Below, in pieces: positions 6,474 through 33,323 of a DNA stretch of 36,017 nucleotides. Numbering within the stretch: position 1 is the first letter of the stretch; every line of letters starts with the position of its first letter. The translations under genes were made by a program, and so were the position numbers. The DNA comes from a virus: positions 1 through 36,017 of IMG/VR virus record IMGVR_UViG_3300021375_000087, one strand, 5' to 3'. The notes beneath the pieces are model-generated. The model worked only from the letters and a program-made list of their open reading frames with translations, was not told the origin of the DNA and ran no database searches.

Positions 6474-7016
6474 TTAGATGCCGGCTGCGGCTTGAATGCT
6501 TTTGATATATTCGTCTTTAGGTTTATCAGATTCTTTGTGATCTAAGCCGGCTTTAAGTCTCATTTCATTGAGTTCTTCATCGACATTTTTTTCGATTTCA
6601 TATTTGGCTGGGTTTAAGATAATTTTTTGTTTCATAATATCTAACTCTAGTGGGTAATCTTCACCATCAATGTTAAGAGTATAATCTTCGACAGGCATAC
6701 CTGTTAATGTTTCCATGTCTCTAATTAATCCTAACAATCTACGTGCTACCCATGAACGTCTTTCCATTTCAACAAAGACTAACCATTTGTTAGGTTCAAG
6801 TTCGCCTTCACTAATACTTGCATCTAAGATATAATCATAGCCTCTTTCAAACCATGTCACTAAATCTTCTGCTACTAATTTTGATTTAACCATGAATGTT
6901 ACTGTAACTATGTCTTCATCACTACCCATCTTAGCGGCATATTCATCAACAGAAACAATAGGAAAAACTTGATTTTCCATATCTAAGTAGTTTAAACTTT
7001 CAGTAATTATAGTCAT
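6474..7016 (-). CDS. Conserved-type hypothetical protein, 180 residues
   Basis: Soluble, acidic alpha/beta protein with no signal peptide or membrane helix. A segment around SWVARRLLGLIRDMETLTG (about residues 95-113) looks helical and amphipathic, and the last 40 residues are Lys/Glu-rich. The start codon overlaps the stop of the upstream gene by one base (TAATG), indicating tight translational coupling. The pair probably works together. I recall similar pairs in marine T4-like phages without an assigned function and see no catalytic motif. It is separated from dnaJ downstream by a new sigma70 promoter, so it belongs to the late unit starting near 7.65 kb. Confidence 0.75.
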   Translation of the reverse strand: MTIITESLNYLDMENQVFPIVSVDEYAAKMGSDEDIVTVTFMVKSKLVAEDLVTWFERGYDYILDASISEGELEPNKWLVFVEMERRSWVARRLLGLIRDMETLTGMPVEDYTLNIDGEDYPLELDIMKQKIILNPAKYEIEKNVDEELNEMRLKAGLDHKESDKPKDEYIKSIQAAAGI

Positions 7017-7651
7017 TAGATTTGAAATGCTCCGCCATCATTTGGTGCGCCTGCTGTCATATCATCGTCTGCCATCATGTCATCTGCGCCTGCATCGTCT
7101 TCTGATTTTGTTTGCTCTAAATCATTGTCATATGCATCTTCAATTTCTGATAGATCGATTGTGTCTTCTGCAATGTCAACACTTCCTTCTTTAATGTCAT
7201 CCATCAATTCAAAAGGTATTTCGATTTGCATAAACCAAACTTTGTTTTCTTGCATTTTAGGATAACGACTTCCTGATTGAAAGTCTTCATATGATGTGAC
7301 TGCTACAGGAACTTCAATCTTAGATTTCATCATTTTAACATTACAACCTATAGTTGCAAGTCTTAATGTTGCTCTTGGATCAGGCATAAGTTTGTAAGGC
7401 CACATAAAAGAACATTTACATGTGTAACGTCCAACATCGGGTCCTTGCACTAACTCACCATTGATCCAGTTTTTGTAAGCATAAATATCTGCTTCATCTA
7501 AAACTCTTTCAAAATCCAATAGAGTATTCATCGATCCATCAGACATGTAGATGTTCTTAATCGTATCTACGATGCTAATAAAGTCAATGTCTTTGAAGAA
7601 TGAATCTGCTTGTTTCCTAGCAAGATTGTCGCCTGTAATTGCTTTAGTCAT
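7016..7651 (-). CDS. Conserved-type hypothetical protein with acidic tail, 211 residues
   Basis: I place the start at ATG 7649-7651 (MTKAITGDN), not at an in-frame GTG at 7718-7720. The 5' extension would encode two copies of the late promoter motif and has little protein character. The body has Trp- and Cys-containing strands (KCSFMWPYKLMPDPR). The last ~40 residues are almost entirely Asp/Ala/Met/Gly, a disordered acidic tail typical of DNA-mimic or scaffold-interacting segments. Its stop overlaps the next start (TAATG). It heads a late operon with the 180-residue gene. The function is unknown, and no catalytic residues stand out. Confidence 0.72.
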   Translation of the reverse strand: MTKAITGDNLARKQADSFFKDIDFISIVDTIKNIYMSDGSMNTLLDFERVLDEADIYAYKNWINGELVQGPDVGRYTCKCSFMWPYKLMPDPRATLRLATIGCNVKMMKSKIEVPVAVTSYEDFQSGSRYPKMQENKVWFMQIEIPFELMDDIKEGSVDIAEDTIDLSEIEDAYDNDLEQTKSEDDAGADDMMADDDMTAGAPNDGGAFQI

Positions 7652-7656
7652 ACTAG

Positions 7657-7664
7657 TATTTATC
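7657..7664 (-). promoter_or_regulatory. Late promoter motif (GATAAATA), 5 nt before ATG
   Basis: The minus strand reads GATAAATACTAGT then ATG. With T4 late spacing (+1 six bases after the octamer), the A of the start codon would be the first transcribed base. The 12-bp core recurs exactly 54 bp upstream. Confidence 0.65.
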
Positions 7665-7710: not shown

Positions 7711-7718
7711 TATTTATC
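7711..7718 (-). promoter_or_regulatory. Second late promoter motif (GATAAATA), tandem copy
   Basis: The minus strand reads GATAAATACTAG, identical over 12 bp to the motif 54 bp downstream. A transcript from here would have a leader of about 54 nt containing CGGAGAG some 14 nt before the ATG, so the two promoters would give leadered and leaderless versions of the same message. Confidence 0.55.
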
Positions 7719-7830: not shown

Positions 7831-8616
7831 ATGAGTAAACGCAAAACTGGAGCACTTAGGAAAAAACATGAACCATACAGACACAGGGAAACTCAAAACA
7901 GCGCCGAGGACACATTCTACATGAACTCCTCAAAATCCATCGACTTTAGCAAGTATAGAAAAAAGCAACAGTCACGTAGACCAATCGAATTAATACCTCA
8001 GAGTATAAATCAGGAAAAATATATTATAGCATTAAATGACCCTGAAACAGATATCGTTATGGCTAGTGGCCCTGCTGGAACAGGTAAAACCTACTTAGCA
8101 ATGTTGGCGGCAATGAGAGCATTAAGATCGGGTCAGTGCGATAAAATACTATTAACACGCCCTGCTGTTGCTGTAGATGACGAAAAACATGGATTTTTAC
8201 CAGGTGACTTAAACTCAAAAATGGAACCGTGGGTAAGACCTTTATTTGACGTAGTACGTGAATACTATTCACAGAATGAAATCGAATATATGTTAAAGGA
8301 ACAAATAATTGAAATAACACCTTTAGCATTTTGTCGAGGCAGAAACTTCAAACACTCTTGGATTATACTAGATGAGGCTCAAAACGCAACACCGTCACAA
8401 ATAAAAATGTTAATGACAAGGATTGCTGAGGGTAGCAAAATCATAATCAATGGTGATGTTGAACAGACTGACCGAAAAACATATGATAATGGGCTCCTCG
8501 ATTTACAAGACAGAATCGATCTACACAAAGTACCAGGCATGAAAGCATGTACATTTGATCGAAAAGACATACGGAGACACAAGATTATTGAACACGTATT
8601 AAAGATGTATCAATAA
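7831..8616 (+). CDS. phoH: PhoH-like P-loop ATPase
   Basis: 261 residues, one of two plus-strand genes. A basic N-terminal extension (1-50) precedes the PhoH domain: Walker A GPAGTGKT at 80-87, the TRPAVAVDDEKHGFLPGD segment diagnostic of PhoH, Walker B IILDEAQNA, and a NGD sensor (IINGDVEQTD). PhoH proteins are ATPases linked to phosphate starvation in bacteria and are common in marine phages. Biochemical work on the family points to RNA helicase or nuclease-coupled roles, but the phage function is unsettled. The start is supported by AGGAA 7 nt upstream. It is divergent from the 211-residue gene and ends before a strong bidirectional hairpin, so it forms its own transcription unit. Confidence 0.95.
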   Translation: MSKRKTGALRKKHEPYRHRETQNSAEDTFYMNSSKSIDFSKYRKKQQSRRPIELIPQSINQEKYIIALNDPETDIVMASGPAGTGKTYLAMLAAMRALRSGQCDKILLTRPAVAVDDEKHGFLPGDLNSKMEPWVRPLFDVVREYYSQNEIEYMLKEQIIEITPLAFCRGRNFKHSWIILDEAQNATPSQIKMLMTRIAEGSKIIINGDVEQTDRKTYDNGLLDLQDRIDLHKVPGMKACTFDRKDIRRHKIIEHVLKMYQ

Positions 8617-9471: not shown

Positions 9472-9744
9472 TTATTTTTTCTTTGATTTCTTTTCGATTG
9501 GTGCTTCTTTCTCTAACTGCTCAATCAGTTTAGGATAGATTCTTTTGTAGTATTCAGACATCTGCTCAAATGTAGTATCATGGTTATTACCTTCGATTAC
9601 ACATTTATGAATAGAATTATCAGAATAATCCATAATCACATTTTTAGTGTTCATGTCTGACTTTTTAAGTTTACGTGAAGTTTGCACCAATTCGTCAATC
9701 TGACCATTTGGTTTGCGAATGTATTGTATTAATAAGTATCTCAT
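9472..9744 (-). CDS. Small basic hypothetical protein after gene 44
   Basis: 90 residues. The N-terminal half reads as beta strands (MRYLLIQYIRKPNGQIDE), the middle has a KCVIEG strand, and the end is a charged helix finishing with a Lys-rich tail. It occupies the place where T4 carries gene 62 (clamp-loader small subunit), but it is half that length and I see no convincing similarity. I recall comparable ~90-residue proteins in marine T4-like phages with no known function. A canonical TATAAATA lies 6 nt before its ATG, giving a predicted leaderless late transcript. It is also co-transcribable with gene 44 (17 nt gap) and with the methyltransferase gene (1 nt gap). Confidence 0.75.
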   Translation of the reverse strand: MRYLLIQYIRKPNGQIDELVQTSRKLKKSDMNTKNVIMDYSDNSIHKCVIEGNNHDTTFEQMSEYYKRIYPKLIEQLEKEAPIEKKSKKK

Positions 9745-9750
9745 ATCAAA

Positions 9751-9758
9751 TATTTATA
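9751..9758 (-). promoter_or_regulatory. Canonical T4-type late promoter TATAAATA
   Basis: The minus strand reads TATAAATATTTGAT then ATG. All eight bases of the T4 late consensus match. The motif lies between gene 44 and the 90-residue gene, and the six-base spacing puts initiation at or next to the start codon. Confidence 0.7.
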
Positions 9759-9761
9759 CAG

Positions 9762-10685
9762 TTAAGAAGTCAACTCAACTAAAGTTGCGGCAAGTGATAT
9801 CTCTGGGATACCTACTAAGGGTAAATTTGCTAGACCGTTTCTAATGACAATAATATTTGCATCACGTTCTTCATTACTTGCACCGAACAAGTCTAAGTTA
9901 TCATACATCCAACGATATGTATCTTCAATACGAGTAGGATACAATGCAATATATTGCATCAATTGTTGTCTTGCTTCGATTAAATTACCGCTTTTAAACA
10001 GATTTGTTGCTTCTACTAAGAGTTCATCTTCACTCTGTCCTGCACTCTGAGGGGGCCTGAGAGCGCCGGAACCGCTGTTTACTTGCAATTGATTGAGACA
10101 CTTACGTAAGTCAGGATAAGTTGCACGAACAAATGTATCTAATACATCTAATTCAAACTCAACATTTTCTGTGACTAACACAGTTGCCGCTCTTGCTGTA
10201 AACTCTGTCATATCAGGCTTTGCAATATGATACTGATGACAACGAGACTTGAGTGCAGGAATGATCTTATGGGCATAGTTACATGTGAGAATGTATCTTA
10301 CAGTCTCATGGTATGACTCCATATCATTTCTTAAGGCTGCCTGCGAGGGCTGAGTTAAATAGTCAGCCTCGTCTAACAACACCACCTTGAACTTGCCAAA
10401 CGGCATAGTCTGCACAAAGCCATTGATCTTTTCACGTAGCATGTCTATACCATTCTCACGTGAAGCATTGATCGTTAGCACATCATATTCTTCAACACCT
10501 AACTCATGTATAAGCAATTTTGCTAGTGTTGTTTTACCAGTACCCGGATCACCTGACATCAATAAATGAGGGAAACTACCTTCACTAATCCAGTTTTCTA
10601 CTTGATTCTTTTGATTTTCATCAGTAAAGACATAGCCGTCTACTGTTTTAGGACGATACTTTTCTACCCACAATTGATTCTTCAT
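9762..10685 (-). CDS. 44: Clamp-loader large subunit, gp44-like (RFC-type AAA+)
   Basis: 307 residues, near T4 gp44 (319). It opens with the RFC box WVEKYRPKT (residues 6-14). Walker A is GDPGTGKT at 45-52, Walker B is VVLLDEADYL at 101-110, and the SRC arginine-finger motif is at 147-149. Domain III helices follow (from ~230). With gp62 it forms the ATPase that loads the gp45 sliding clamp on primed DNA for gp43 polymerase and for late transcription. The ATG at 10683-10685 is preceded by AGAGGT. A perfect sigma70 promoter lies upstream, bounded by a terminator, so it heads its own early unit with the 90-residue gene and the methyltransferase gene. No gene 62 or 45 is in the window. Confidence 0.95.
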   Translation of the reverse strand: MKNQLWVEKYRPKTVDGYVFTDENQKNQVENWISEGSFPHLLMSGDPGTGKTTLAKLLIHELGVEEYDVLTINASRENGIDMLREKINGFVQTMPFGKFKVVLLDEADYLTQPSQAALRNDMESYHETVRYILTCNYAHKIIPALKSRCHQYHIAKPDMTEFTARAATVLVTENVEFELDVLDTFVRATYPDLRKCLNQLQVNSGSGALRPPQSAGQSEDELLVEATNLFKSGNLIEARQQLMQYIALYPTRIEDTYRWMYDNLDLFGASNEERDANIIVIRNGLANLPLVGIPEISLAATLVELTS

Positions 10686-10786: not shown

Positions 10787-11167
10787 TTAGCCTTCCCAAC
10801 CTGCATCATCTTCGTCATAAACACCGTCATTGTTTGAATCACAGGCACGTTGCCAAGATATCATACCAAAAGTCAATCCTTCTGACCATGGGATATATGC
10901 ACTACACCAAGCATGTGATCCAACAGCCATATCATCATCAGTTCCGTTATCTACTTGAACATAGTCTCGTTGACTAGTTTCTGGAAACACTTTAAACTGA
11001 ATAGTTCTACCGTTACTGTAAGTTCGTTGCTGATACAACTTACCTTTAGTAACATGAATCATTTCTCCTTCTTTAAGGGTCAATGTAGAACCGTCTTCAT
11101 AGTTAATAACAGTTTGAGCAGTAGCACCGAATGAAACTAGTGCTAGGGTAAAAATAAAAAATTTCAT
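10787..11167 (-). CDS. Exported small protein with EF-hand-like calcium loop
   Basis: 126 residues. Residues 1-18 form a signal peptide: one Lys, a hydrophobic core (FFIFTLALVSFGA), then ATA before Q19. The mature part has short strands ending KGKLYQQRTYSNGRT, then C88 and C109, which could form a disulfide in the periplasm. A loop DSNNDGVYDEDD at 110-121 has acidic or amide residues at EF-hand positions 1, 3, 5 and 12 and Gly at 6. Export plus calcium binding points to a role in the periplasm or at the membrane during infection, or to secretion into the envelope. AAGGAG, a strong ribosome site, precedes the ATG. No homologous function is known to me. It lies between the GroES-like gene and a terminator. 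Confidence 0.8.
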   Translation of the reverse strand: MKFFIFTLALVSFGATAQTVINYEDGSTLTLKEGEMIHVTKGKLYQQRTYSNGRTIQFKVFPETSQRDYVQVDNGTDDDMAVGSHAWCSAYIPWSEGLTFGMISWQRACDSNNDGVYDEDDAGWEG

Positions 11168-13420: not shown

Positions 13421-13660
13421 TTATTTCCTATCTACTTTTATATTGTCGCCAATATCTTTGTCAGCAAATAATTTATCTAACTTTTTCTTTTGTTCATCTT
13501 TGTAACTATTCATAATCATGTCTAGTTGATTAATCATAGGTCCATTTTGTGTTCTATGGGCAAAAGTTATTTTTGATGTAAGATCGGCGATTGCTTCTTG
13601 CAAATCTTCAATGCTCTTGTCTGAAAGATCACTTATAAATGGATGATGCATGCCTGACAT
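13421..13660 (-). CDS. Small helical hypothetical protein, 79 residues
   Basis: Two predicted helices (KSIEDLQEAIADLTSKITFA and a second around INQLDMIMNSYKDEQKKKL) joined by a short turn give it the look of a helical-hairpin or coiled-coil adaptor. Charged residues dominate. It is preceded by GAGGTAGG and starts 11 nt after the stop of the 437-residue fibre-like gene; its stop is 1 nt before the 189-residue gene. This suggests a structural or assembly accessory of the fibre block, but I do not recognise it. Confidence 0.72.
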   Translation of the reverse strand: MSGMHHPFISDLSDKSIEDLQEAIADLTSKITFAHRTQNGPMINQLDMIMNSYKDEQKKKLDKLFADKDIGDNIKVDRK

Positions 13661-21100: not shown

Positions 21101-21455
21101 CACTGATGTTTGCCACAGTGTTAGGCATATCAATATATAATGTTTGTGTAGAGTCTGTGATAGTTGCACTACCACCTGGAGATCCGTTTCCGGGTGCGTC
21201 TCTGCTTAATGATAGAGTAGTTGTAGTAAACTGTACGCAAGAGATGTTAGCACCTAATACTACGTTCCCTACTGGGGAGCCGTTCACTAAGTATACACCA
21301 GGACCTGCTGTTTTGTTAACTGATACTACTGCTTGATCGCCTAGTCCTGCAAATACTTCTGTAAAATTTAACTGAACTTTCTCAAATGCCGATCGTATAG
21401 CATCTGCATCTGGATCGTCTGGGAATGCTCCGAAGTCAATATTTCTTTGTGCCAT
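18138..21455 (-). CDS. Very long repeat-built tail fibre protein
   Basis: 1105 residues. The N-terminus (MAQRNIDFGAFPDD, then IRSAFEKVQLNFTEVFAGL) resembles the attachment end of the 437-residue protein. About residues 252-450 consist of an 18-residue unit, AGANVSGEVxxAxTANAV, repeated roughly eleven times. A second group of about five follows near residues 730-890. In between and after come repeats of QPNITSxGTLTSLxVxGN. Ala/Gly/Val/Asn/Thr make up most of the protein, consistent with a long trimeric beta-rich shaft. The C-terminal ~110 residues (from about DIFSVTVNVSNNGVRLMP) are non-repetitive and are the likely receptor-binding or trimerisation tip. A late promoter and AGGAAAG precede the ATG. 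Repeat number probably varies by recombination. Confidence 0.85.
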   Translation of the reverse strand: MAQRNIDFGAFPDDPDADAIRSAFEKVQLNFTEVFAGLGDQAVVSVNKTAGPGVYLVNGSPVGNVVLGANISCVQFTTTTLSLSRDAPGNGSPGGSATITDSTQTLYIDMPNTVANISDVIVSNSVQGNAIIGNVSGDFGYVLANASSGNGNIIGNNASLSNTLSVTGNITAGNLNVSTGQITAGPIVAGNLYANSGTVKGATLEGSLVTASQPNITTVGTLTGLGVQSTVTAVAFTANTGLFTGDAGGLSNIIGANVTGAVPFATTANAVAGANVSGEVTNAATANAVAGSNVSGAVSFATTANAVAGANVSGEVTNAATANAVAGANVSGAVSFATTANAVAGANVSGEVPFAQVANSVAGANVSGEVSFAGTANSVAGANVSGAVANATHAVSSDSANAVAGANVTGEVPFAQVANSVAGANVSGQVAFAGTANIVAGANVTGTVANATYADTSGTVETAAQPNITSTGTLTSVAVTGNTDSGNLNTTGVVSATGNITGGNVLGAGGVFTYVSGDGANLTNISVSTGSYIENGTSEARLDASGPFRVTSGGTANVLIVKNTGTEVEVTGSMSVSGGIDNNINFNSTSNLGPVGNVTITGGVSGAFLHTDGAGTLTWNTGTVQPTQGADTQIIFNDSGAYAGNTGFTFNKTTGNLDVPGNLIGASKVSGTTLGGSLVTNAQPNITSLGTLTSLILGGTLNTNSDIITNAGNIEISAGTGTFKGSGAGLSAIAGANVTGEVTNAATANAVAGANVSGEVTNAATANAVAGANVSGEVPFAQVANSVAGANVSGAVSLATSATSATTAGTVTTASQPNITSVGSLSSLSVTGNVSAGNVSGTGGVFTYVSGDGANLSAIAGANVSEVPLATLATTATTANAVAGANVSGTVALATTAGTVSTSAQPNITSVGTMTVLGVNGIVTAQSFTANTGLFNGDGGGLSNVVAANISGTVANATYATSAGSAALALDITGGPQPNITSLGTLTSLTVSGNITNQTHIIKDVSTQTASGTDQAGAAALLNADIFSVTVNVSNNGVRLMPAAAGLCIYVKNLSGSNLLKVYPASGDAIDENGTNAPIVIGAKGQIQFVAHSASQWYSVGATYA
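20100..20700 (-). repeat. In-frame 54-bp repeats of the tail fibre gene
   Basis: Roughly eleven direct 54-bp units encode AGANV(S/T)G(E/A/Q)V-type 18-mers. Units differ by synonymous and a few conservative changes and often alternate between TNAATA and SFATTA variants. A smaller block of the same unit lies at about 18780-19260. The repeats are coding throughout, not CRISPR. Confidence 0.85.
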
Positions 21456-21477: not shown

Positions 21478-21485
21478 TATTTATT
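21478..21485 (-). promoter_or_regulatory. Late promoter motif (AATAAATA) of the tail fibre operon
   Basis: The minus strand reads GAATAAATACTAA, directly after the terminator of the 1226-residue gene. Initiation near 21472 leaves a short leader with AGGAAAG before the ATG at 21453-21455. Confidence 0.65.
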
Positions 21486-21562: not shown

Positions 21563-24500
21563 TTATTTGATGCTATCTAATTTGTTTAAAATAGTTGCAA
21601 AACCATCTGATGACATTACAGAACCTTCTTTAACTACGTCAGCACCATTGTATCCCATTCTGTCTTCTTGACCAGCAATAACTGGGATAGTAGTTTGACC
21701 TGTTGATTTCTGTTTGTTAAGTCCACCAGAGATTACTTTAGTCATAAAGTCAATATCTTGTTCAAATGAAGTATCGGTGCCGTTTTTACCTGCATCGTTA
21801 GCCCATTCATCAAGTTTTTCTTCTTTATCTTCTTTTTCTGCTACAGTGAATTCTCTTTGATCATCAGTTTGTACTTCTGTGATTTCTTCGTTCTCACCGT
21901 CGTTTACTGAGTCCTTAGGAGCATCCTCTGCGCCTTCTTTCGTTAAGAGTCTCTCATCATCATGTTGTGATAACGGCTGAGTAGGTTCTTCTGAAGACTC
22001 TGCTCCTACTTCTGCTAGTAAGTCTAAAGTTTTAAGATTTTCTTCTAAAGATACATGTCTGTCTTCTTTATCTCTCTTACCAAACTTGCCATATGAATCA
22101 TCTCTACGATCTTTCATACTTTGTTTCTTATCAGACTCTTTTCCAGTTCTCATTCCTAATGACTCGTCTTCTTTGTCATCATAGCCTTGATCTTCTTCCA
22201 TGTGATGTCTATCTTTATAGTCATCATATTCTAAATCTTTAACAACATCTTCTCCATCTCTTTTTGAATGCTTACGACCGTCGTAATGTGCATCACGTGC
22301 AACTTCTCTTCCTGCACGTTCTGCATGATCGTCTCTTTCAGCATCAGATTCTTCGTCAATGCCTTTCTTAGCAACTGTAGATGCGTCCCAATCATACTTG
22401 TCATATGTTCCTGCATCTTTTTCTTGTTCTTTGATGTCTCTATGTTCTTCGTCACGTTTGCCGAACTTTCCATATGAATCATCTCTACGGTCTTTCATAG
22501 ATTGTTTTTTACTTGATTCTTTGCCAGTACGCATTCCTAATGACTCGTCTTCTTTGTCATCATAGCCCTGACTCATTTCATCAATCATGTTCATCATTTC
22601 TTCTAATGATTTTTCTCTATGCTCTGAATCTCTTTTACCAAACTTTCCGTAAGAGTCATCTCTACGTGCTTTGTCTGATTGTTTGTGATCTGATTCTTTA
22701 CCAGTTCTCATACCTAAAGATTCGTCTTCTTTGTCATCATAGCCTTGATCTTCATGCATATCGTCTGCTTGAGGTTTAACATCGTGGTCATCTTCATACT
22801 CTTTGATGTCTCTATGTTCTTCATCTCTCTTACCGAATTTTCCGTAAGAGTCATCTCTACGATCTTTCATGGATTGTTTCTTATCAGACTCTTTTCCTGT
22901 ACGCATACCTAAAGATTCATCTTCTTTGTCATCATAGCCTTGGTCTTCAGAAAACTTGAGAGGTTTCTCAGAATCGTCACCTCTTTCTTTGTCTCCTCTG
23001 CCACCAAGAGCACCATGATTATACCCATGTGATTTGTCATTCATGCCATAGTTGTCATGTTTTTCATCATCTTGGTCAAAGTCTTTGTTGATATCAACGT
23101 CTTCTTTAGAGATGTCTCTGTGTTCTTCATCTCTCTTACCGAATTTACCGTAAGAGTCATCTCTGCGATCTTTCATTGATTGATGCTTGCCTGATTCTTT
23201 ACCAGTTCTCATGCCTAATGACTCGTCTTCTTTGTCATCATAACCTTGATCTTCATATGCTTTGTCGCCACATGCTTCGTCCATGTCATCTACTTGTACT
23301 GCGATTTCATCATCTGAACCGCAAGATCCAGGTGCTTCTACTTCGTCTTCAAAGTCGCCGTTACCCATATCGACAATACCCATTAATTTGAGCATGTCAT
23401 CGTGTGAACTCATTGGTTCTTCACTTTGATCTGGTTGACCATAGAATGATACGTCTGCTACTTCACCAGGTGCATCTAAAACTTCTGCATCACCATAGTT
23501 ACCTAATCCAACATCTTTAACAAATTTAATTAACTTGTCTGCTTCTGCATCTGTTGCATTAACACTAACTCTGTCTGGTTGATTTTGTTCTCCTTGAGTG
23601 ATAGACATTGTATAGCCTTCATCAAGTTTTCTTTTGTTTGATTTTTTACCTTCATTCAAATGGGATTGTAAACCTTTTTCTAAAGATTCAAATGTCCACT
23701 CATCTTCTTCTAAGTATGCATCTTCTGTAGTTTTTGTGAATTCTTTTCCACCTACTTCAAACTTATCACCTGTATGTGCTTTTGCAAGTGCGCCTGAGAA
23801 TGCGTTACCTTCTTCAAATTCGTCTTCATCAATGCCTTTCTTAGCAACTGTTTGTGCGTCCCAATCATATTTGTCATATGCACCGTCATCATCTGCACCA
23901 ACGTTTCCGTCTGGAGAAGATTCTGCTTCGCCCATTGCACCGTATGATGCCATAGTGTCTACGACTTCTGCTTCAGGCTCCTCTTGAACCATTCCTGTAA
24001 TTGGTGCTTGTCTAATACCCATGCCTTCTGCATCAGCACTGAAACCATCATTAGCATCTTCATAAGCATTCTTCATACCACATGCTTCATCAAGACCTGT
24101 CTTGTAGCCCTCGTGGTATGCTCTAGCACCTTCAGAACCTGCATCATGTGGACATGCATAAGATCCTTTACATAAACCATGAGATTTACCCATGTGCTTC
24201 GCGGCTTTCAGAATGTGTTCTGCGCCTTCTTTTAAGTTTGTTTTAGTATTTTTAATCATAATATTAAGTTCTTGTTTATTGCATTTAGGATGCAGTTGTT
24301 GTATTTGTGATGTAGATAAGCCTTCTGAACACATAGATTTCACTTTAGAAATACTAGGTAGTTTACTAGATTTGCTTACCTTACCCTTAGCCTTTTCTTT
24401 TACAAGTTGAGGAGTATCAGAATCATTGGCTGCCAAAGCGGCGTTTGCCGCGGCGTTGCCTTTTTCATCGTTAGTTGAATTTGGAGACCCATCGTCTGCT

Positions 24501-25243
24501 GGATATTGAGCGCCTTCTTTTACTTTACCTGAAATTACACTTTGAGTATTAGATCCATTGTCGCCCATCTTTGGTGTGATTTCTGGAAGTTTAATTGCTT
24601 CTTTTATTTTTGATGAACGTTGTGTATCATATGAAAGTGGAGATTGTCCACCATATGAACCAGATCCGTCACTTTCTCTCATGTTACCACCTGATATAGG
24701 TGATGTTAAATCCATTGAAGATTCAGGAGGAGTATCAGTTTCTTTCATCTTACTAAATGTTTTAGCAAGGTTTGCTCTTTTTTCTGTTTTAGCATTAAAC
24801 TTGTCTTTGTTTGCTAGTACATGTTTTGCGAATGCTGATGTAGACATTCCTGCTCTTTCTGCTTGTGCTTTAAAAGCACCTGGCTTCTTAACTGCTTTAT
24901 CAATCCAATCTTCGGCTTCTTGTATTTCTTCTTCACCAATAGTTAATTCGCCTTTAGCCATTGCTTGTTGCATTTGTTGAGCAACTTGTGGATTCGATAC
25001 AGAACCGATTGCTTGACCATCTTTGTGAATTTCTTGTGCACCAGGCTTTGCTGGCTCTAATGATAGTTCTTCAAAGACATTCTTTAATGAGGGAAGTTTT
25101 AATTCATTTGATACTGGCTCAGCAACTTCTGCTGATTCAGTTAACATATTACTAGGTCGAGTTTTCTTTTTCTCATCTAATAATTTGTTGTCTTCTTTTT
25201 CAGTGACTTTATCAAATTGTGTTAAGATGTCTTTAAAATCCAT
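21563..25243 (-). CDS. Giant charged repeat protein (1226 residues), probable virion or internal head protein
   Basis: I start at ATG 25241-25243 (MDFKDILTQFDKV) with AAGGA 7 nt upstream; an in-frame ATG 54 nt earlier overlaps the previous gene and lacks a ribosome site. Residues ~110-165 form a Lys-rich helical unit (W-I-D-K-A-V-K-K-P-G-A-F, then RAGMS, then KRANLAKTFSKM) of a kind I recall in other marine phage virion proteins. Residues ~290-350 hold a Cys/Lys-rich helical stretch with C-x-x-x-x-x-x-C pairs. From ~664 to ~1060 a ~46-residue unit (QGYDDKEDESLGMRTGKES, then DRRDDSYGKFGKRD) occurs five times. YDKYDWDAxTVAKKGIDE occurs twice. Composition is extreme in Asp/Glu/Lys/Arg, so much of it is likely disordered. 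A scaffold, internal head or decoration role is inferred from its place after the terminase; it could equally be a DNA-binding protein. Confidence 0.75.
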   Translation of the reverse strand: MDFKDILTQFDKVTEKEDNKLLDEKKKTRPSNMLTESAEVAEPVSNELKLPSLKNVFEELSLEPAKPGAQEIHKDGQAIGSVSNPQVAQQMQQAMAKGELTIGEEEIQEAEDWIDKAVKKPGAFKAQAERAGMSTSAFAKHVLANKDKFNAKTEKRANLAKTFSKMKETDTPPESSMDLTSPISGGNMRESDGSGSYGGQSPLSYDTQRSSKIKEAIKLPEITPKMGDNGSNTQSVISGKVKEGAQYPADDGSPNSTNDEKGNAAANAALAANDSDTPQLVKEKAKGKVSKSSKLPSISKVKSMCSEGLSTSQIQQLHPKCNKQELNIMIKNTKTNLKEGAEHILKAAKHMGKSHGLCKGSYACPHDAGSEGARAYHEGYKTGLDEACGMKNAYEDANDGFSADAEGMGIRQAPITGMVQEEPEAEVVDTMASYGAMGEAESSPDGNVGADDDGAYDKYDWDAQTVAKKGIDEDEFEEGNAFSGALAKAHTGDKFEVGGKEFTKTTEDAYLEEDEWTFESLEKGLQSHLNEGKKSNKRKLDEGYTMSITQGEQNQPDRVSVNATDAEADKLIKFVKDVGLGNYGDAEVLDAPGEVADVSFYGQPDQSEEPMSSHDDMLKLMGIVDMGNGDFEDEVEAPGSCGSDDEIAVQVDDMDEACGDKAYEDQGYDDKEDESLGMRTGKESGKHQSMKDRRDDSYGKFGKRDEEHRDISKEDVDINKDFDQDDEKHDNYGMNDKSHGYNHGALGGRGDKERGDDSEKPLKFSEDQGYDDKEDESLGMRTGKESDKKQSMKDRRDDSYGKFGKRDEEHRDIKEYEDDHDVKPQADDMHEDQGYDDKEDESLGMRTGKESDHKQSDKARRDDSYGKFGKRDSEHREKSLEEMMNMIDEMSQGYDDKEDESLGMRTGKESSKKQSMKDRRDDSYGKFGKRDEEHRDIKEQEKDAGTYDKYDWDASTVAKKGIDEESDAERDDHAERAGREVARDAHYDGRKHSKRDGEDVVKDLEYDDYKDRHHMEEDQGYDDKEDESLGMRTGKESDKKQSMKDRRDDSYGKFGKRDKEDRHVSLEENLKTLDLLAEVGAESSEEPTQPLSQHDDERLLTKEGAEDAPKDSVNDGENEEITEVQTDDQREFTVAEKEDKEEKLDEWANDAGKNGTDTSFEQDIDFMTKVISGGLNKQKSTGQTTIPVIAGQEDRMGYNGADVVKEGSVMSSDGFATILNKLDSIK
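22065..23254 (-). repeat. Five copies of a ~140-bp coding repeat
   Basis: Copies lie at about 22065-22195, 22436-22572, 22615-22752, 22804-22948 and 23111-23254. They encode QGYDDKEDESLGMRTGKES and DRRDDSYGKFGKRD nearly without change, while the linkers between copies differ in length and sequence. Confidence 0.85.
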
Positions 25244-25253
25244 AATATAATCC

Positions 25254-25880
25254 TTAATACCCTGCTGAAGTTTCAGGCTTAGGGCCTCTTTTAACATCAG
25301 TCATAGGACTTTTTTGACCTTTAATTGAGTCATCAGTCCAAGGCTTCCAAGGATCAAATGAATCTTTAGTGTTCTTTTGATCAGCAGGCAAACCTACTTT
25401 ACCAACGTTCTTATATTCTGCATGTTTGTGTATGCTATCTAAATACTTATCACCATATTCTTTGCTGGCTTCTTTTCCATTGTCATTCATTTCTTCATGT
25501 TGTAACAAAGGAGTATCTTTCATTTCATTTTCATATCCAACCATTTCGTTGTCAATGCTGTCATCAAATGCACTATTAACCATTCTTACATAGTTAATGT
25601 TATGTCCTAATAGTTGTGCTAGTTGTTGAACCATCGGCTCAGTTACGGGATAAGCAAATTGACATTTAAATATATGTACTGGTTCGTTTGAAAGATTGGG
25701 GAAACCATATGGTGATTTCATAATCGGTGTTGATGTTGGGCCTTTGATTTCTTTAGGCTCAAACTTGTTTAAGTTATGTTTGAATAACTCTAAGAAATTT
25801 TTGCTACAGTCACCAGCAACTTTGATTGTACAATCATAAGTATGAACCGATTCTGCAATGTAATGTTTTAAACTTTTCAT
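25254..25880 (-). CDS. Conserved-type hypothetical protein downstream of the small terminase
   Basis: 208 residues from ATG 25878-25880 (MKSLKHYIAESVHTYD). A longer frame reaching 25931 would encode the late promoter and is rejected. The first ~115 residues look like a compact alpha/beta domain: TYDCTIKVAGDCSKNF, then GPTSTPIMKSPYGFP, then VHIFKCQFAYPVTEPMVQQL. The next ~90 are charged and Asp/Lys/Pro-rich. I recall the same order (small terminase, then this protein) in other marine T4-like phages, with no function assigned. It has its own late promoter at the end of the terminase gene. It is followed after 10 nt by the 1226-residue gene, suggesting a common role in head assembly or packaging. 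Confidence 0.72.
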   Translation of the reverse strand: MKSLKHYIAESVHTYDCTIKVAGDCSKNFLELFKHNLNKFEPKEIKGPTSTPIMKSPYGFPNLSNEPVHIFKCQFAYPVTEPMVQQLAQLLGHNINYVRMVNSAFDDSIDNEMVGYENEMKDTPLLQHEEMNDNGKEASKEYGDKYLDSIHKHAEYKNVGKVGLPADQKNTKDSFDPWKPWTDDSIKGQKSPMTDVKRGPKPETSAGY

Positions 25881-25902: not shown

Positions 25903-25910
25903 TATTTATC
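25903..25910 (-). promoter_or_regulatory. Late promoter motif (GATAAATA) at the end of gene 16
   Basis: The minus strand reads GATAAATATATTATAC, overlapping the last codon of the terminase gene. The octamer ends 22 nt before ATG 25878-25880, leaving a leader of about 17 nt with GGGAAC. It fixes the start of the downstream gene. Confidence 0.6.
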
Positions 25911-26394
25911 ATTCCTCTGTGTTTTTCCCACTTAAAACTCGTAGTAATTCGTTGCGATCTAAGTTTTGAGCACCATCACCTAAAGGAATATTATCAATCT
26001 TCTCGTCTTGTTTTGCTTGACGTTGATCTAATGTTGCTTTCTTTAACTGTAGATCAATCATCTTTAATTTTTTGTTTAACTTTGCTGTCTTAGCGGTTAT
26101 AGCATGATTTAACATATTACTAGCAACACTAAAGATATCACCACTAAAACGAGAATCAACTTGCATACCCAAGTCCATCAAATCTTGGAAACTTGTCTCT
26201 GCTTTTTGGCTCAGTTCATCCATCTCTCTATCAGATGCTTCTAGTCCTCTGACTGTAGGTAAAGCAGTTTCAATCTTTTCTAAATTACTTAATGCTTCTT
26301 TAGTAACTTCTTGTGCTACACCTGGAATAGGCTCATTCAGTTCGTTTTCATCACTGGATGCGATATCAAATAATTCTTCAAGTTTCTTTGTCAT
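25909..26394 (-). CDS. 16: Small terminase subunit, gp16-like
   Basis: 161 residues, close to T4 gp16 (164). The N-terminus (LEELFDIASSDENEL) is acidic and flexible. A long helical centre follows (residues ~45-125), including GLEASDREMDELSQKAE, then DLMDLGMQVDSRF, then HAITAKTAKLNKKLKMIDLQ, consistent with the central coiled-coil that drives ring formation in gp16-type subunits. Small terminases regulate the gp17 motor and recognise DNA for packaging. The large subunit gene, adjacent in T4, is not in this window. A CTAAATA motif ends 5 nt before the ATG and no ribosome site is present, so a leaderless late message is predicted. The assignment rests on length, helix pattern and resemblance to marine phage gp16 as I remember it. 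Confidence 0.75.
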   Translation of the reverse strand: MTKKLEELFDIASSDENELNEPIPGVAQEVTKEALSNLEKIETALPTVRGLEASDREMDELSQKAETSFQDLMDLGMQVDSRFSGDIFSVASNMLNHAITAKTAKLNKKLKMIDLQLKKATLDQRQAKQDEKIDNIPLGDGAQNLDRNELLRVLSGKNTEE

Positions 26395-26399
26395 ATATC

Positions 26400-26406
26400 T
26401 ATTTAG
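26400..26406 (-). promoter_or_regulatory. Late promoter motif (CTAAATA), 5 nt before the terminase ATG
   Basis: The minus strand reads AACTAAATAGATAT then ATG. It overlaps the stop codon region of the gp4-like gene. Late spacing places +1 on the start codon. Confidence 0.55.
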
Positions 26407-26853
26407 TTACTTTCTACTTCCGTTATAGAAAAGATCGTCTTCTGTAACTACTCTAAATTTAATACCTTGTGCTTTGCAAAATGCTTTTGCTGAATGCCAT
26501 TTAGCATGATTGATTGCAATGACTGCTTGTTGTCTTGCATTTTTAACTTTTTCTGTTATAATACTTTCTGCTTTAGGTTTAATTTCTATTAATTCTGCTT
26601 TAGTTACACCAAACTTATCTTGGTAAACAATAAAAAAGTCTGGTATATAATTAGTACGTTTGCCTTTAAAAGGATGCATATAAGGGATAACTATTGATTC
26701 ACTTGCCCATTTGATTATCTTGTCATTTGTATCACAAAAAATCATAAATGTAAGTTCCCAACCAGATCGATATTTAGGCTTGCCTTTACCTACATACTTG
26801 TGTTGATTTTTTACAGTATAGATACCCTGTGCGTATTTTTTTCTACGAGGCAT
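26407..26853 (-). CDS. gp4-like head completion protein (TnsA-type nuclease fold)
   Basis: 148 residues, the size of T4 gp4 (150). The pattern matches the TnsA/restriction-type nuclease fold: KYRSGWELTFMIFCD with a conserved E in helix 1, then IIKWASESIVIPYMHP, then NYIPDFFIVY with the catalytic-type P-D, then AELIEIKPK supplying the E-x-K. The E..D..E-K set is therefore complete. T4 gp4 acts late in head maturation, before tail joining, and may trim packaged DNA ends. The basic N-terminus (MPRRKKYAQ) would suit DNA contact. It is translated from AAGG upstream and ends into the promoter of the terminase gene. The family call is moderately firm; the head role is by analogy with T4. Confidence 0.72.
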   Translation of the reverse strand: MPRRKKYAQGIYTVKNQHKYVGKGKPKYRSGWELTFMIFCDTNDKIIKWASESIVIPYMHPFKGKRTNYIPDFFIVYQDKFGVTKAELIEIKPKAESIITEKVKNARQQAVIAINHAKWHSAKAFCKAQGIKFRVVTEDDLFYNGSRK

Positions 26854-26862
26854 TGATTAACC

Positions 26863-27240
26863 TTAAGGTAATACGTTACGTTGTACGGCTTGATTAGGAG
26901 TGGGAACGTTTGATACTCCGTACAATGCTGTTTTTGACTTTAATAAATTGAGATAAAAAGCCATTTCTGTGTTTACTTGAACTGAAGTCTCTGCATTAGT
27001 TCTAAAGTAATCCATAAAGATATTAATGTTTGTTCCAGTTTCCTGTGCAATTCTAAACAAAACAGTTGCAAATTGAGCCGCTGTTTTTTTAGTTCTTTCA
27101 TTTTCAGAATTACCTTTAAGTACACCTAAAAAATAAGAATAAACTGCGTCCCATTCTCCTGAGTTTATAGTTAATGATTCTGCATAAAAAGTATCAAATA
27201 CTTCTAATGTGTTTTCTCTTTCTGTTATTTGTAATGCCAT
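26863..27240 (-). CDS. Small hypothetical protein in the tail operon
   Basis: 125 residues, nearly all helical: EVFDTFYAESLTINSGEW, then WDAVYSYFLGVLKG, TAAQFATVLFRIAQETG, and a final helix before the Pro/Asn-rich end. There is no cysteine, membrane helix or catalytic motif. Its ATG overlaps the stop of the gp54-like gene (TAATG), so it is made in step with that baseplate protein. The size and context suggest a tail or baseplate assembly factor. I recall similar proteins in marine T4-like genomes without a name. Confidence 0.7.
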   Translation of the reverse strand: MALQITERENTLEVFDTFYAESLTINSGEWDAVYSYFLGVLKGNSENERTKKTAAQFATVLFRIAQETGTNINIFMDYFRTNAETSVQVNTEMAFYLNLLKSKTALYGVSNVPTPNQAVQRNVLP

Positions 27241-28439
27241 TATGCAAGTCCGCCTGTTTGCTTTCCAGCATTTACAGCATCTGCTATTGCAGTACCGTCG
27301 TCTGCTGATTGGGGTACAGTAGTCTTGTTATTGTTTGCGGCAGTTACAATACCTTGATTAGCAATGTTGATCATTGCAGGAGTTGCCGCATCAGTTGGGA
27401 ATAGTGCTGACGTATCTGTTTCCCCTCCACCAAATAGTTTATTCATCACTGCTTCTTTTGCCGCATCTTTAATTGCTTTCTTTGCACTGTCTACTATATT
27501 ATCACTATTTTTATAAAGTTCATATGCTGCCTGAATATCATCTCTATTGAGATCTCCATCAACAAAACCTTTCATATCTTTGAAAATATCTACTGGATTG
27601 TTTCCTCCTTGTTCTAAAGGACTTGTTGCATTATCATAATTTGCATCTTCTTTGAAGCCAGTAACTAATGACCCTGCTTCTTCGTCATCAATTTTACCTG
27701 AATTGTAAACTACAGTTTCATAGTTGATAGTCATTCTATTCTGCATTGTGCCGCCACCGTCAGCATAATCATATGTATCGTGGTCCATTGTAGTAATGAC
27801 AGGATTAATTAAAGTATATGCAATAAAGTTTCCTGCCCACATGCCGTATATTGTAATGTTATTAAAGAAAGGAACTTTTTCTCCTTGTACTTCTCTAGCA
27901 TCTGCACCGCCTTGACCTCTAGCATCTCCCCTATAACCATATTCAATATCACCTGATATTGATGGATCGTAAATATTACGTCTATTAAAATTCTTTATTG
28001 CTGTAGAACCTGAAAAAGGATCAACAGTAGGGTTCCATGCATCTGCATAGTTATATCTATAGTATGCGTCCCACAATGCAGTAATCTGTGATGCGTTATC
28101 ATCATGGAATGTAATATCAATTGGTTGATATTTAATTTTTGATTGAATCAATCGTTTTCTATTGTACTGATTCATTTCTTGTACGTCTATATTAAACGTA
28201 GGTAGTTTAACTGATTTAACTAACAGTCCATAGTTTTCTCCTGTCGGCGGAGAATATGCTTGTTCGTTAATAGAAAAGTAAGTATGAAAGGTAAACTTAA
28301 CTTTACCTGCGTTACCTTGCCCACCAGGTAAGAACGTCTTGGCCGCATGTTGCCAATCACGTAAGTATACTCTACCCGTAAGTGCATCTAATATACCCTG
28401 ACCGGTTTGCTGTAAAAAATCTTTTGCTGTCTGAGACAT
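27240..28439 (-). CDS. Tail-tube-like baseplate protein (gp54/gp48-type)
   Basis: 399 residues. Residues ~45-260 have tube-protein features: KFTFHTYFSINEQAYS, then GLLVKSVKLPTFNIDVQEMN, then RLIQSKIKYQPIDITFHDD, then LWDAYYRYNY, and NRMTINYETVVYNSG as the closing strand. This parallels the gp19 strand order but is longer, as expected for the tube initiator (gp54) or cap (gp48) that seats the tube on the baseplate. The C-terminal 130 residues are Ala/Asp/Asn-rich and helical. I cannot separate gp54 from gp48 by eye. It follows the tail tube gene but is cut off from it by a terminator. Its own late motif ends 5 nt before the ATG, so its message is predicted to be leaderless. Confidence 0.65.
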   Translation of the reverse strand: MSQTAKDFLQQTGQGILDALTGRVYLRDWQHAAKTFLPGGQGNAGKVKFTFHTYFSINEQAYSPPTGENYGLLVKSVKLPTFNIDVQEMNQYNRKRLIQSKIKYQPIDITFHDDNASQITALWDAYYRYNYADAWNPTVDPFSGSTAIKNFNRRNIYDPSISGDIEYGYRGDARGQGGADAREVQGEKVPFFNNITIYGMWAGNFIAYTLINPVITTMDHDTYDYADGGGTMQNRMTINYETVVYNSGKIDDEEAGSLVTGFKEDANYDNATSPLEQGGNNPVDIFKDMKGFVDGDLNRDDIQAAYELYKNSDNIVDSAKKAIKDAAKEAVMNKLFGGGETDTSALFPTDAATPAMINIANQGIVTAANNNKTTVPQSADDGTAIADAVNAGKQTGGLA

Positions 28440-28444
28440 AATAG

Positions 28445-28452
28445 TATTTATC
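28445..28452 (-). promoter_or_regulatory. Late promoter motif (GATAAATA), 5 nt before ATG
   Basis: The minus strand reads GATAAATACTATT then ATG. It lies between the gp19 terminator and the gp54-like gene, so it is the main visible promoter for this operon. Initiation is predicted on the start codon. Confidence 0.7.
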
Positions 28453-28472
28453 TATCCTGTAAGTCCATAAAA

Positions 28473-28492
28473 AAACTGGCCGAAACCAGTTT
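28473..28492 (-). terminator. Rho-independent terminator after the tail tube gene
   Basis: A 7-bp stem (AAACTGG / CCAGTTT) encloses a 6-nt loop and is followed on the minus strand by a T-run (GGCCAGTTTTTTTATGG). It begins 24 nt after the gp19 stop. Confidence 0.85.
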
Positions 28493-28516
28493 CTTTATTT
28501 AAATCTAAAATGATTC

Positions 28517-29161
28517 TTATGTTGAGTTGCCGCCACCTGGGAATGTTTGTAGACCTGATTGTCCTACACCTGCTCCCGGTACGCCGTTGATATCTCCACC
28601 AGCATTTGTCTGGATTGCGTTATCGTAACGTAAAGTCATAGCAATAGTCACTGCATCAGATGTACCATAGTTAAGTTGCTGATAGTTTGCTTGTTGTAAG
28701 AAACAACCTGCTAATGACCAGTTTTCTAATACTGTTGGTGTATTGATACCGTTACCACCGTCTAAGATTTGAATTTCAGTTTGGAATTTATAATCTCCAC
28801 CTGCTGCCGCTGAAGACTGCTCGTAGAAATCTAATTGACGTTGTAACTGAGCACCAACTGCTTTTGATACATTACCAGAAGCATCATCTCTGACGTTGAT
28901 AGCAAGTGTTTGCCATGTGTGCTTACCAGCAAGATAGACACGTGAGTTATACACGTTCATAGTGATTTCATCAAACTGAACTTGTGGTCTCGCACAATCT
29001 ACGACTTGTCTTGTAAGTATAAGTGAAGAATCATCGTCAAAACCAAAATTAATAAAGTTCACACGGAATCTATATTGAAGTTTTGGCATCAACAAGTTTT
29101 GGTTAGCGCCTCCCTCAGGTTGAACCGAAAGTTTTGCTAATGTATCTGAGGCTGTTGCCAT
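28517..29161 (-). CDS. 19: Tail tube protein, gp19-like
   Basis: 214 residues, longer than T4 gp19 (163). The family pattern is clear: KLQYRFRVNFINFG as the first strand, RQVVDCARPQVQFDEITMNV, then NSRVYLAGKHTWQTLAINVR, a helix with QLQRQLDFYEQSS, LENWSLAGCFLQQANYQQL, and the closing strand AVTIAMTLRYDNAI. Hexamers of this protein stack inside the sheath and form the DNA channel. The extra length is mainly the flexible N-terminus and a Gly-rich C-terminal tail (about 190-214). The ATG is preceded by GGAGA and a late promoter, and the gene is flanked by a UUCG hairpin on one side and a T-run terminator on the other. That allows the high, separate expression expected for a major structural protein. 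Confidence 0.93.
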   Translation of the reverse strand: MATASDTLAKLSVQPEGGANQNLLMPKLQYRFRVNFINFGFDDDSSLILTRQVVDCARPQVQFDEITMNVYNSRVYLAGKHTWQTLAINVRDDASGNVSKAVGAQLQRQLDFYEQSSAAAGGDYKFQTEIQILDGGNGINTPTVLENWSLAGCFLQQANYQQLNYGTSDAVTIAMTLRYDNAIQTNAGGDINGVPGAGVGQSGLQTFPGGGNST

Positions 29162-29194: not shown

Positions 29195-29202
29195 TATTTA
29201 TC
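29195..29202 (-). promoter_or_regulatory. Late promoter motif (GATAAATA) of the tail tube gene
   Basis: The minus strand reads AGATAAATATATATTAAG. A leader of about 30 nt follows, ending with GGAGATTAACA before the ATG at 29159-29161. Confidence 0.65.
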
Positions 29203-32200: not shown

Positions 32201-32848
32201 TACACTTACCCAAGTATTAGCACTATTTTTGTACCAATATGAGGGAGCATTTGCATTGTTAGGATTTCTATAATTAGGAATCGCAACAACTGCATAGTCA
32301 CCGATGTTTCCTACTGATGTAAGAGGTGTACCTACTGATACTAATGCCGCATCAGAAATAACTATTGGTGTCTTCGATGTAAATACGCCAGTAGTTTCAT
32401 TAAACTCATTAATTCCCCATGTAGAAGAAGTTGTGTTTAACCAGTAAGAATCATTTGTTGGTGCTCCTGTTGGACGACCTGTTGATCCTACTAAACTTGC
32501 TAGATCGACATCTGCTCTTAAAACAAATACTTGATTTGAAATACCAAGTGCAGAGTATGCCGCTAGTAATCCATATTCATTTAATTCATAGCCCTGTAAC
32601 GGAGTACCGTTTGATGCTGTGTAAAAGAATGGGTTACCGTATAAAGAAACAAGATCACGTTGAGAAGTGACTCTGTATAATTTACCTGCATTCGCAGACG
32701 TTGTTGCCGCCGCTGTTGCAGTTGATGTTGGGTCCGCTTTGTCTTGTGCTGTTGCTAACAAGAAGAACGGGATTGATGCTGTTGCGCCTGGTAAATATTG
32801 ACTTTCGTCAATGATGCTTACTTCTACGCCTGGTGATGTTAGTGCCAT
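29243..32848 (-). CDS. 18: Tail sheath protein, gp18-like, strongly enlarged
   Basis: 1201 residues against 659 in T4 gp18. The N-terminus (SPGVEVSIIDESQYLPG, then IPFFLLATAQDKADP) and the C-terminal ~350 residues (from about GETSYIVGDTPMRL through NPMVFFTGNGLLNYGN, ARLIAYIRRQLILAARPFVF and ELWIDIAVEPVKAAEFIYV) carry the sheath polymerisation core and linker strands. In between, residues ~130-830 are an Asn/Thr/Ser/Gly-rich insertion containing repeated aromatic units such as YWLNTTSSTW, YWYKNSANTW and DLWLDTTD...LYRW. Such insertions would project outward from the contracted or extended sheath. The protein contracts to drive the tube through the envelope. A late promoter, a short GGGTGTAACCC leader hairpin and AAGGAAT precede the ATG. 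Confidence 0.93.
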   Translation of the reverse strand: MALTSPGVEVSIIDESQYLPGATASIPFFLLATAQDKADPTSTATAAATTSANAGKLYRVTSQRDLVSLYGNPFFYTASNGTPLQGYELNEYGLLAAYSALGISNQVFVLRADVDLASLVGSTGRPTGAPTNDSYWLNTTSSTWGINEFNETTGVFTSKTPIVISDAALVSVGTPLTSVGNIGDYAVVAIPNYRNPNNANAPSYWYKNSANTWVSVDSPEWMFSWPTLTAPTSNPTLTQGDTINLIINSTNLATLTVAAAPNNTITQLAADINALGFNYVSAAVVNNKLEIYSAQTGGDNASNPNFFIRLTGATGTIFTDLGFTGSTVTGFQPRGFWGTSAQQPLWQSGQAEPAPTGSVWIKVNGTGLQPVISQYDSVAASYTSKTPTFATSDWSQIYSADTTGGQAIAAGSVYAQYNFDGEYEGAPVYYFYRAATGATVINGTNTAPDFQAGPYVARVQISTPGSTTLSSPYPFNLADATDASDFVTAWSAANIPYTSASVNDDGSIQLQHTSGGVIVLDEYSSVNGVSTGVFTEAGFTTATTGCKIGPFRDDIEFSVTQTATTGSGTALQIKVTNDYGNYDFDPDAVVNGGSGHAVGDVVTFSGADMGGATPGNDLKVTVSSVTAGVVTSYTWNSGKGVDMFTTQLSNWREFSLTTSGANSLTANEGAPTAIPTNFTNWFYSSTDQVDIMMNYNGAWKGYKSQGYDSNGLPSPAVANATDPKGPIVSATEPTTQSDLTALVYGDLWLDTTDLETYPNLYRWQSVPAVGGGSATDKWVLIDNTDQTTPAGILFKDARWATNGTTNPANDPIPSIASLLASDYLDVDAPSSSNYPQGMLMWNTRRNSYNVKQYRVNYFNADRFPTASLPTQKDAWVTASGDQANGAMYAGRKAQRAMVTKALRSAIDTNVAIRDEDNYFNLQATPGYPELQPNMVALNSDRGETSYIVGDTPMRLKDDATEIQAWATNTAGAVTTGEDGLVTRNTYMGLFYPSGITSDLSGNLVAVPSSHMMTRTMLRNDNIAYPWLAPAGTRRGIIDNATSIGYIDAEGEFNSIRTRIGIRDVLYTNFINPMVFFTGNGLLNYGNKTSFNSSSALDRVNVARLIAYIRRQLILAARPFVFEPNDPQTRKSIKAVVETLFQDLVSKRGLYDYSVVCDDSNNTPARIDRNELWIDIAVEPVKAAEFIYVPVRIFNTGELSGS

Positions 32849-32906
32849 AATAATATTCCTTTTGTATGATTTTGAGGGTTACACCCTGATTGTTTTTTCA
32901 TACTAT

Positions 32907-32914
32907 TATTTATC
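32907..32914 (-). promoter_or_regulatory. Late promoter motif (GATAAATA) of the sheath gene
   Basis: The minus strand reads GATAAATAATAG about 58 nt before the sheath ATG. The leader it creates contains AGGGT-GTA-ACCCT (32875-32887), a small hairpin, before AAGGAAT. Confidence 0.65.
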
Positions 32915-32959: not shown

Positions 32960-32967
32960 TATAAATA
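32960..32967 (+). promoter_or_regulatory. Canonical late promoter TATAAATA, 5 nt before ATG
   Basis: The plus strand reads TATAAATACTAGT then ATG. All eight consensus bases match and no gene lies upstream on this strand, so it is the clearest example in the window of a predicted leaderless late transcript. Confidence 0.75.
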
Positions 32968-32972
32968 CTAGT

Positions 32973-33323
32973 ATGAGTTTACCTAGACCAATATGTAAAA
33001 TTTGCAACAGAAAAGTCTGTGCTGTGAACTATATTAAGAAAGGCAAACGTCATTACCGAAGCATGTGCGATCAATGCGGTAAAGTAAACCGAACAAGAAA
33101 GCCTATATATCTCTGGCAAAAAGCAGGATATCAAAAAGATGATACATGTTTCTTATGTGGATTTAAAAGTCTGTACCCTACACAAATGGTTGTATATCAT
33201 ATAGATGGAAAGCCTCAGAATGTAGACTTTCAAAATTTAAGAACGATATGTCTAAATTGTATTGAAGTTGTAAAGAAAAAAGAAATTGTATGGGTTAGAG
33301 GAGACTTAACTGTTGACTATTGA
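32973..33323 (+). CDS. Zinc-finger HNH-like protein on the plus strand
   Basis: 116 residues from ATG 32973; upstream in-frame codons would translate the promoter and are rejected. Four C-x-x-C pairs (C8/C11, C32/C35, C59/C62, C93/C96) can hold two zinc ions. Between the last two, YHIDGKPQNVDFQNLRTIC carries H76 and N88 in the spacing of an HNH/McrA-type finger. Basic residues are frequent (KKGKRHYR), fitting DNA binding. It could be a homing-type or packaging-linked nuclease, or a non-catalytic zinc-finger DNA-binding protein, since the first His of the H-N-H set is not obvious. It lies as an isolated plus-strand gene between the sheath and dNMP kinase genes, overlapping the latter tail-to-tail by 18 bp. 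I recall similar proteins near gene 18 in marine T4-like phages. Confidence 0.75.
   Translation: MSLPRPICKICNRKVCAVNYIKKGKRHYRSMCDQCGKVNRTRKPIYLWQKAGYQKDDTCFLCGFKSLYPTQMVVYHIDGKPQNVDFQNLRTICLNCIEVVKKKEIVWVRGDLTVDY

Follow-up and report, generated by a model that had tools for sequence, protein, structure and literature searches.

Late promoters of bacteriophage T4 depend on gp55, gp33 and gp45 and are used upstream of structural genes (PMC2988020, PMC1524935, PMC7892883). They consist of a TATAAATA-type box, of which a CTAAATA variant has been reported for Aeh1. The T4 octamer lies at −13 to −6 from the transcription start (PMC1524935), about one helical turn upstream (PMC2988020), and is followed by a leader with a Shine-Dalgarno (SD) site. 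In Deinococcus-Thermus, a −10 motif located 6-7 bp before the ORF gives leaderless mRNA for a large share of genes, alongside a second class with a ribosome-binding site motif (PMC12340547). That arrangement relies on a cellular sigma system. The cI message of phage lambda also has a 5′-terminal AUG (PMC9031893), but this concerns a single regulatory gene. In the jumbo phage PhiKZ, the late promoter motif TATG overlaps the start site, but transcription is carried out by a phage-encoded RNA polymerase and +1 is the G of TATG (PMC7618050), so that the mRNA does not begin with AUG and PhiKZ was rejected as a precedent. Here, T4-type late octamers were analyzed, of which about a third of the gene-linked ones leave no room for a leader. 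No earlier report of leaderless T4-type late genes was found in the open-access literature searched, which did not cover most subscription papers or any preprints.

The window analyzed is a 36,017-nucleotide virus fragment (IMG/VR record IMGVR_UViG_3300021375_000087). It carries a tail sheath gene, two tail-tube-like genes, a head-closure (gp4-like) gene, phoH and a gp44-like clamp loader gene (9762-10685); tail sheath and PhoH were named from their sequence and from synteny with PA5oct and Phosso. The best cultured matches of its tail tube are jumbo phages of the T4 superfamily, namely Sinorhizobium phage Phosso, the PA5oct group, Agrobacterium phage Atu_ph07 and Salicola phage SCTP-2, and related contigs reach 360 kb. 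Rfam and tRNA searches of the window gave nothing.

A preliminary description had proposed that five genes in this window, in which a late octamer or its variant ends 5-6 nt before the ATG, are transcribed as leaderless mRNAs. All five sites were confirmed, and the observation turned out to be right and understated. On the minus strand, octamer GATAAATA (7657-7664) is located 5 nt (CTAGT) before the ATG at 7651 of a putatively leaderless virion structural protein gene (phrog_12928; 7016-7651), and octamer TATAAATA (9751-9758) is located 6 nt (TTTGAT) before the ATG at 9744 of a putatively leaderless gene (9472-9744) encoding a 90-aa protein of unknown function next to the gp44-like clamp loader. 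Similarly, the octamer variant ACTAAATA (26400-26407, minus strand), containing CTAAATA and overlapping the stop of the head-closure gene, is located 5 nt (GATAT) before the ATG at 26394 of a putatively leaderless gene for a 161-aa conserved protein (phrog_16202; 25909-26394). Octamer GATAAATA (28445-28452, minus strand) is located 5 nt (CTATT) before the ATG at 28439 of a tail-tube-like gene (27240-28439). On the plus strand, octamer TATAAATA (32960-32967) is located 5 nt (CTAGT) before the ATG at 32973 of a putatively leaderless HNH-type nuclease gene (32973-33323; weak phrog_10822 match).

The contrast with neighboring genes, also noted in that description, was confirmed as well. The starts at 11167 (AAAGGAG) and 29161 (CAGGAGA) have well-spaced SD sites. 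The tail-tube gene at 28517-29161 has its GATAAATA octamer at 29195-29202 (minus strand), with a spacing of 33 nt, and a AATAAATA octamer (21478-21485, minus strand) is followed by a spacing of 22 nt with AGGAAAG before the ATG at 21455. The intrinsic terminator between the tail-tube gene and the octamer of 28439 (28467-28498, minus strand) is real, with a hairpin of −15.3 kcal/mol (z −5.7). No recognizable co-directional gene closely precedes 32973, the next one upstream on the plus strand being phoH at 7831-8616. Two refinements were made. The gene at 7651 has a second conserved octamer about 50 nt further upstream (7711-7718), which could supply a leader. Furthermore, the late promoter of the tail sheath gene (32907-32914, minus strand) is followed at gap 5 by a sixth ATG at 32901, which opens a 20-codon uORF (32901-32839) rather than a gene, in a conserved gp18 leader with a hairpin and AAAAGGA; this small hairpin is not unusual against shuffles.

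The number of octamers with up to one mismatch in the window is what shuffled sequences give (99 versus 104), so the motif count alone says nothing and the argument rests on spacing. Four ATG-initiated ORFs occur at gap 4-6 in the window against 0.07 expected (P about 7e-7), not counting the CTAAATA site.

Conservation of the gap was then assessed at orthologous genes from IMG/VR. For 26394, 37 of the 39 distinct upstream contexts listed keep an octamer-like box about 4-6 nt before the ATG, with linkers including GATAT, GATGT, GATGC, CTTGT, GTTGT and CATAT; the other two lack the box and have AAGGAG or AAGGA upstream of an ATT or GTG. For 32973, 27 of 27 octamer-linked copies are at gap 4-5, and for 9744, 9 of 10 are at gap 5-6. 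All orthologues of these two genes that were listed, 7 of them for 9744, keep the short gap, apart from one distant relative of 32973. For 7651, almost all of about 50 divergent contigs keep GATAAATA plus 4-5 nt plus ATG. For these four genes, the gap is kept while the linker sequence changes. Orthologous proteins do not start downstream.

For 28439, 35 related loci were retrieved. Behind the same octamer and a terminator of which the hairpin and U-run are kept in nearly all relatives listed, the orthologues fall into two states, either CTATT-ATG (gap 5, no SD) or CTCTTATAGGAGA or a near variant plus several nt before the ATG (gap 18-21, strong SD), with nothing in between; one sequence, found in two contigs, has neither. 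On a tree of 19 distinct proteins, the state changes 5 times on the best tree (4-5 in bootstraps), and at least 2 changes are forced by well-supported branches. This alternation argues for the claim more strongly than simple conservation.

A gap histogram over 3.2 Mb of loci showed, for GATAAATA, 72 of 353 sites at gap 4-5, 1 at gaps 9-14 and about 140 at gaps 17-26. Control octamers showed no such two-class pattern, only isolated spikes. Because these loci had been chosen by the genes in question, long related uncultivated contigs (designated G001 to G007) and cultured phages were taken, and every NATAAATA followed by an ATG opening an ORF of 60 aa or more was counted, using scrambled or one-off octamers from the same sequence as controls. 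At gap 4-6, observed versus expected numbers were 17 versus 1.07 in G001, 17 versus 1.23 in G002, 24 versus 0.94 in G003, 12 versus 0.91 in G004, 5 versus 0.32 in G006 and 8 versus 0.36 in G007, or 83 versus 4.83 when pooled. Gaps 7-15 were at or only slightly above expectation, whereas gaps 16-30 formed a second enriched class. The ORFs were called mechanically. The genomes are related, so the P values are indicative and overstate independence. In cultured phages, the numbers were 0 (0.56 expected) in T4, 0 (0.25) in Syn9, 1 (0.43) in P-SSM2, 0 (0.86) in Atu_ph07, 2 (1.13) in PA5oct, 0 (1.24) in Phosso and 7 (3.36) in SCTP-2. In SCTP-2, however, all 7 lie at exactly gap 5, where 1.1 is expected (P about 2e-4). 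The layout is thus strong in the uncultivated clade, weakly present in SCTP-2, marginal in P-SSM2 and PA5oct, and absent from T4, Syn9, Atu_ph07 and Phosso. In T4, 24 cases were found at gap 16-30.

A separate scan of IMG/VR was carried out without reference to any gene. Of 114 usable matches to KATAAATACTWKTATGWMWA, 98 begin an ORF of 60 aa or more, against 13 of 114 matches to the similar GATAAATACTATTATG in cellular contigs (Fisher P 5e-32). The cellular hits are scattered over unrelated bacteria and served as a control, although the control pattern was not identical to the viral one. The viral ORFs fall into 36 protein clusters. Most of these are not the families found in the long contigs, and one cluster of 17 matches the T4-like gp3 tail-completion protein, so the layout reaches other T4-like phages. 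Across the window, the six long contigs, PA5oct and P-SSM2, 62 protein families have the short-gap layout (NATAAATA or NCTAAATA), 22 of them in two or more genomes, including large terminase, virion structural proteins and an HNH nuclease. In PA5oct, the annotated start of gp262 (144985) is preceded by TATAAATA-CGTGT with no SD, and the upstream neighbor is on the other strand. The product is annotated as a structural protein with an ESI-MS/MS note, which supports that such a gene is translated, not how.

With the T4 octamer at −13 to −6, a gap of 5 nt would place +1 on the A of the ATG. The base before the ATG at gap 5 is T or C in 91% and never G, against 52% T or C for all long ATG ORFs in these genomes, which fits a pyrimidine(−1)-purine(+1) initiator. 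The start codon at gap 4-6 is ATG in 87 cases, GTG in 6 and TTG in 1. An SD of 4 nt or more occurs in 5 of 83 cases at gap 4-6 and in 93 of 143 at gap 16-30, although its absence at the short gap is partly forced because the octamer occupies the SD region. The SD class needs room for its SD within the transcript, which explains the empty gaps. Regarding the coding start, codons 2-9 of 26394 vary mostly at synonymous positions across 40 distinct sequences, and the in-frame codon five before the ATG is a stop in 32 of 40. In the long contigs, most gap 4-6 ORFs meet a stop before any other start codon when read upstream, but about 30% have another in-frame start codon upstream. Homologues of the late sigma gp55 (phrog_234) were found in four of the seven uncultivated contigs searched (G001, G002, G004 and G005, E about 1e-22) and in PA5oct, Atu_ph07, SCTP-2 and Phosso. 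They were not detected in G003, G006 and G007, which may reflect fragments or divergence.

Taken together, these are most likely gp55-type late promoters placed so that RNA polymerase starts at, or within one nucleotide of, the A of the ATG (probability roughly 0.86). The late mRNA would therefore begin 5′-AUG and be translated as a leaderless message without an SD site. In this T4-superfamily jumbo-phage clade, late genes use one of two discrete layouts behind the same octamer, gap 4-6 (inferred to be leaderless) or gap about 16-30 with an SD site, and individual genes have switched between the two more than once. Without mapped 5′ ends, leaderless transcription remains a strong inference, as the +1 position is carried over from T4, whose own late genes never use this layout (0 of 65 octamers).

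Among alternative explanations, it is possible, though unlikely, that the octamer is a real late promoter but that productive translation comes from longer messages, started upstream by read-through or a second promoter, through translational coupling or AT-rich, SD-independent initiation, the 5′-AUG transcript being a by-product. Indeed, 26394 closely follows the head-closure gene and 9744 follows gp44, so that read-through mRNA could also carry them, and 7651 has its second octamer. However, 28439 sits behind a strong terminator and 32973 has no nearby co-directional gene, yet both have gap 5. In addition, by-product promoters would not need a gap fixed at 4-6 nt with near-chance counts at 7-15, nor alternation with an SD leader at the same promoter. 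Less likely still, the message could carry a very short leader of 1-5 nt because the start site in this clade is slightly upstream of T4's position, initiation then being 5′-proximal rather than strictly leaderless. Gaps of 4, 5 and 6 all occur, so the start site is either flexible or not exactly at A, but gap 5 dominates and the base before the ATG is strongly pyrimidine, as expected if A is +1. Finally, that the ATG is merely an initiator sequence of the promoter, with true starts elsewhere, is suggested only by the gp18 leader, where most relatives keep the gap-5 ATG although the uORF differs in length and sequence, and is very improbable since only 2 of 92 SD-leadered octamers have an ATG at gap 4-6, ORFs follow in 98 of 114 viral cases, and 26394 shows codon-level constraint from codon 2.

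More speculatively, the layout might represent a second, translational control level in late infection, in which the phage shifts the host ribosome towards 5′-AUG messages, possibly with factors such as the S21-like protein found in several relatives, so that leaderless late genes are favored over leadered ones at a set time. This is doubtful. The ribosomal protein S21 gene does not track the layout, being found in G002, G003, G007 and PA5oct but also in Atu_ph07, which has no leaderless class, and missing in G001 and G004, which do.

Leaderless messages are well documented in archaea, actinobacteria and Deinococcus, but in phages, as far as we know, mainly as single cases such as lambda cI. 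Here, a clade of T4-superfamily jumbo phages applies the layout to dozens of genes, including structural proteins and the large terminase. Orthologous genes switch between the putatively leaderless and SD-leadered layouts behind the same promoter, giving matched natural pairs for asking what each mode costs and buys. The layout also gives a simple annotation rule (octamer plus 4-6 nt plus ATG) that would help fix start sites in uncultivated phage genomes.

Upstream of the tail sheath gene, at 32839-32914 on the minus strand of the window, the gp18 leader is conserved and consists of the octamer, 5 nt, an ATG, a small hairpin (AGGGT-GTA-ACCCT / AGGT-GGTAA-ACCT) and then AAAAGGA. Here, the ATG opens a uORF of 20 codons overlapping the gp18 start, while 5-aa or other short ORFs are found in other relatives. 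The ATG at the presumed +1 is kept in most relatives, though the peptide is not. A second octamer is located at 7711-7718 (minus strand), about 50 nt upstream of the octamer of gene 7651. This second octamer, often GATAAATATTAGGCTA, is conserved in nearly all orthologues with a variable stretch between the two, and possibly reflects a short RNA or an alternative leader. On the same strand, the region 21563-25297 encodes a large acidic protein with at least five copies of a repeat like QGYDDKEDESLGMRTGKES..KQSMKDRRDDSYGKFGKRDEEHRD.

The leaderless layout was also observed beyond the genes showing it in the window. The T4-like gp3 tail-completion gene is preceded by GATAAATACTATT-ATG in viral contig L618 and 16 similar viral contigs, representing another T4-like lineage; in L618, a GC-rich terminator lies just upstream. 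In cultured phages, candidate leaderless late genes are PA5oct gp262 (NC_071039, 144985-145854) and seven genes of SCTP-2 (MF360958) at a gap of 5 nt between octamer and start codon, all of which are usable as test systems.

In two orthologues of the 26394 gene (loci L164 and L173), the octamer is lost and AAGGAG or AAGGA is present upstream of an ATT or GTG at the start-codon position, suggesting a non-ATG start once SD-led initiation is available. Finally, the small gene at 13421-13660 (minus strand) has an SD (GAGGT) and no adjacent octamer in the window, but 12 relatives carry it in the leaderless layout at a gap of 5-6 nt, making this another gene that switches between the two layouts.
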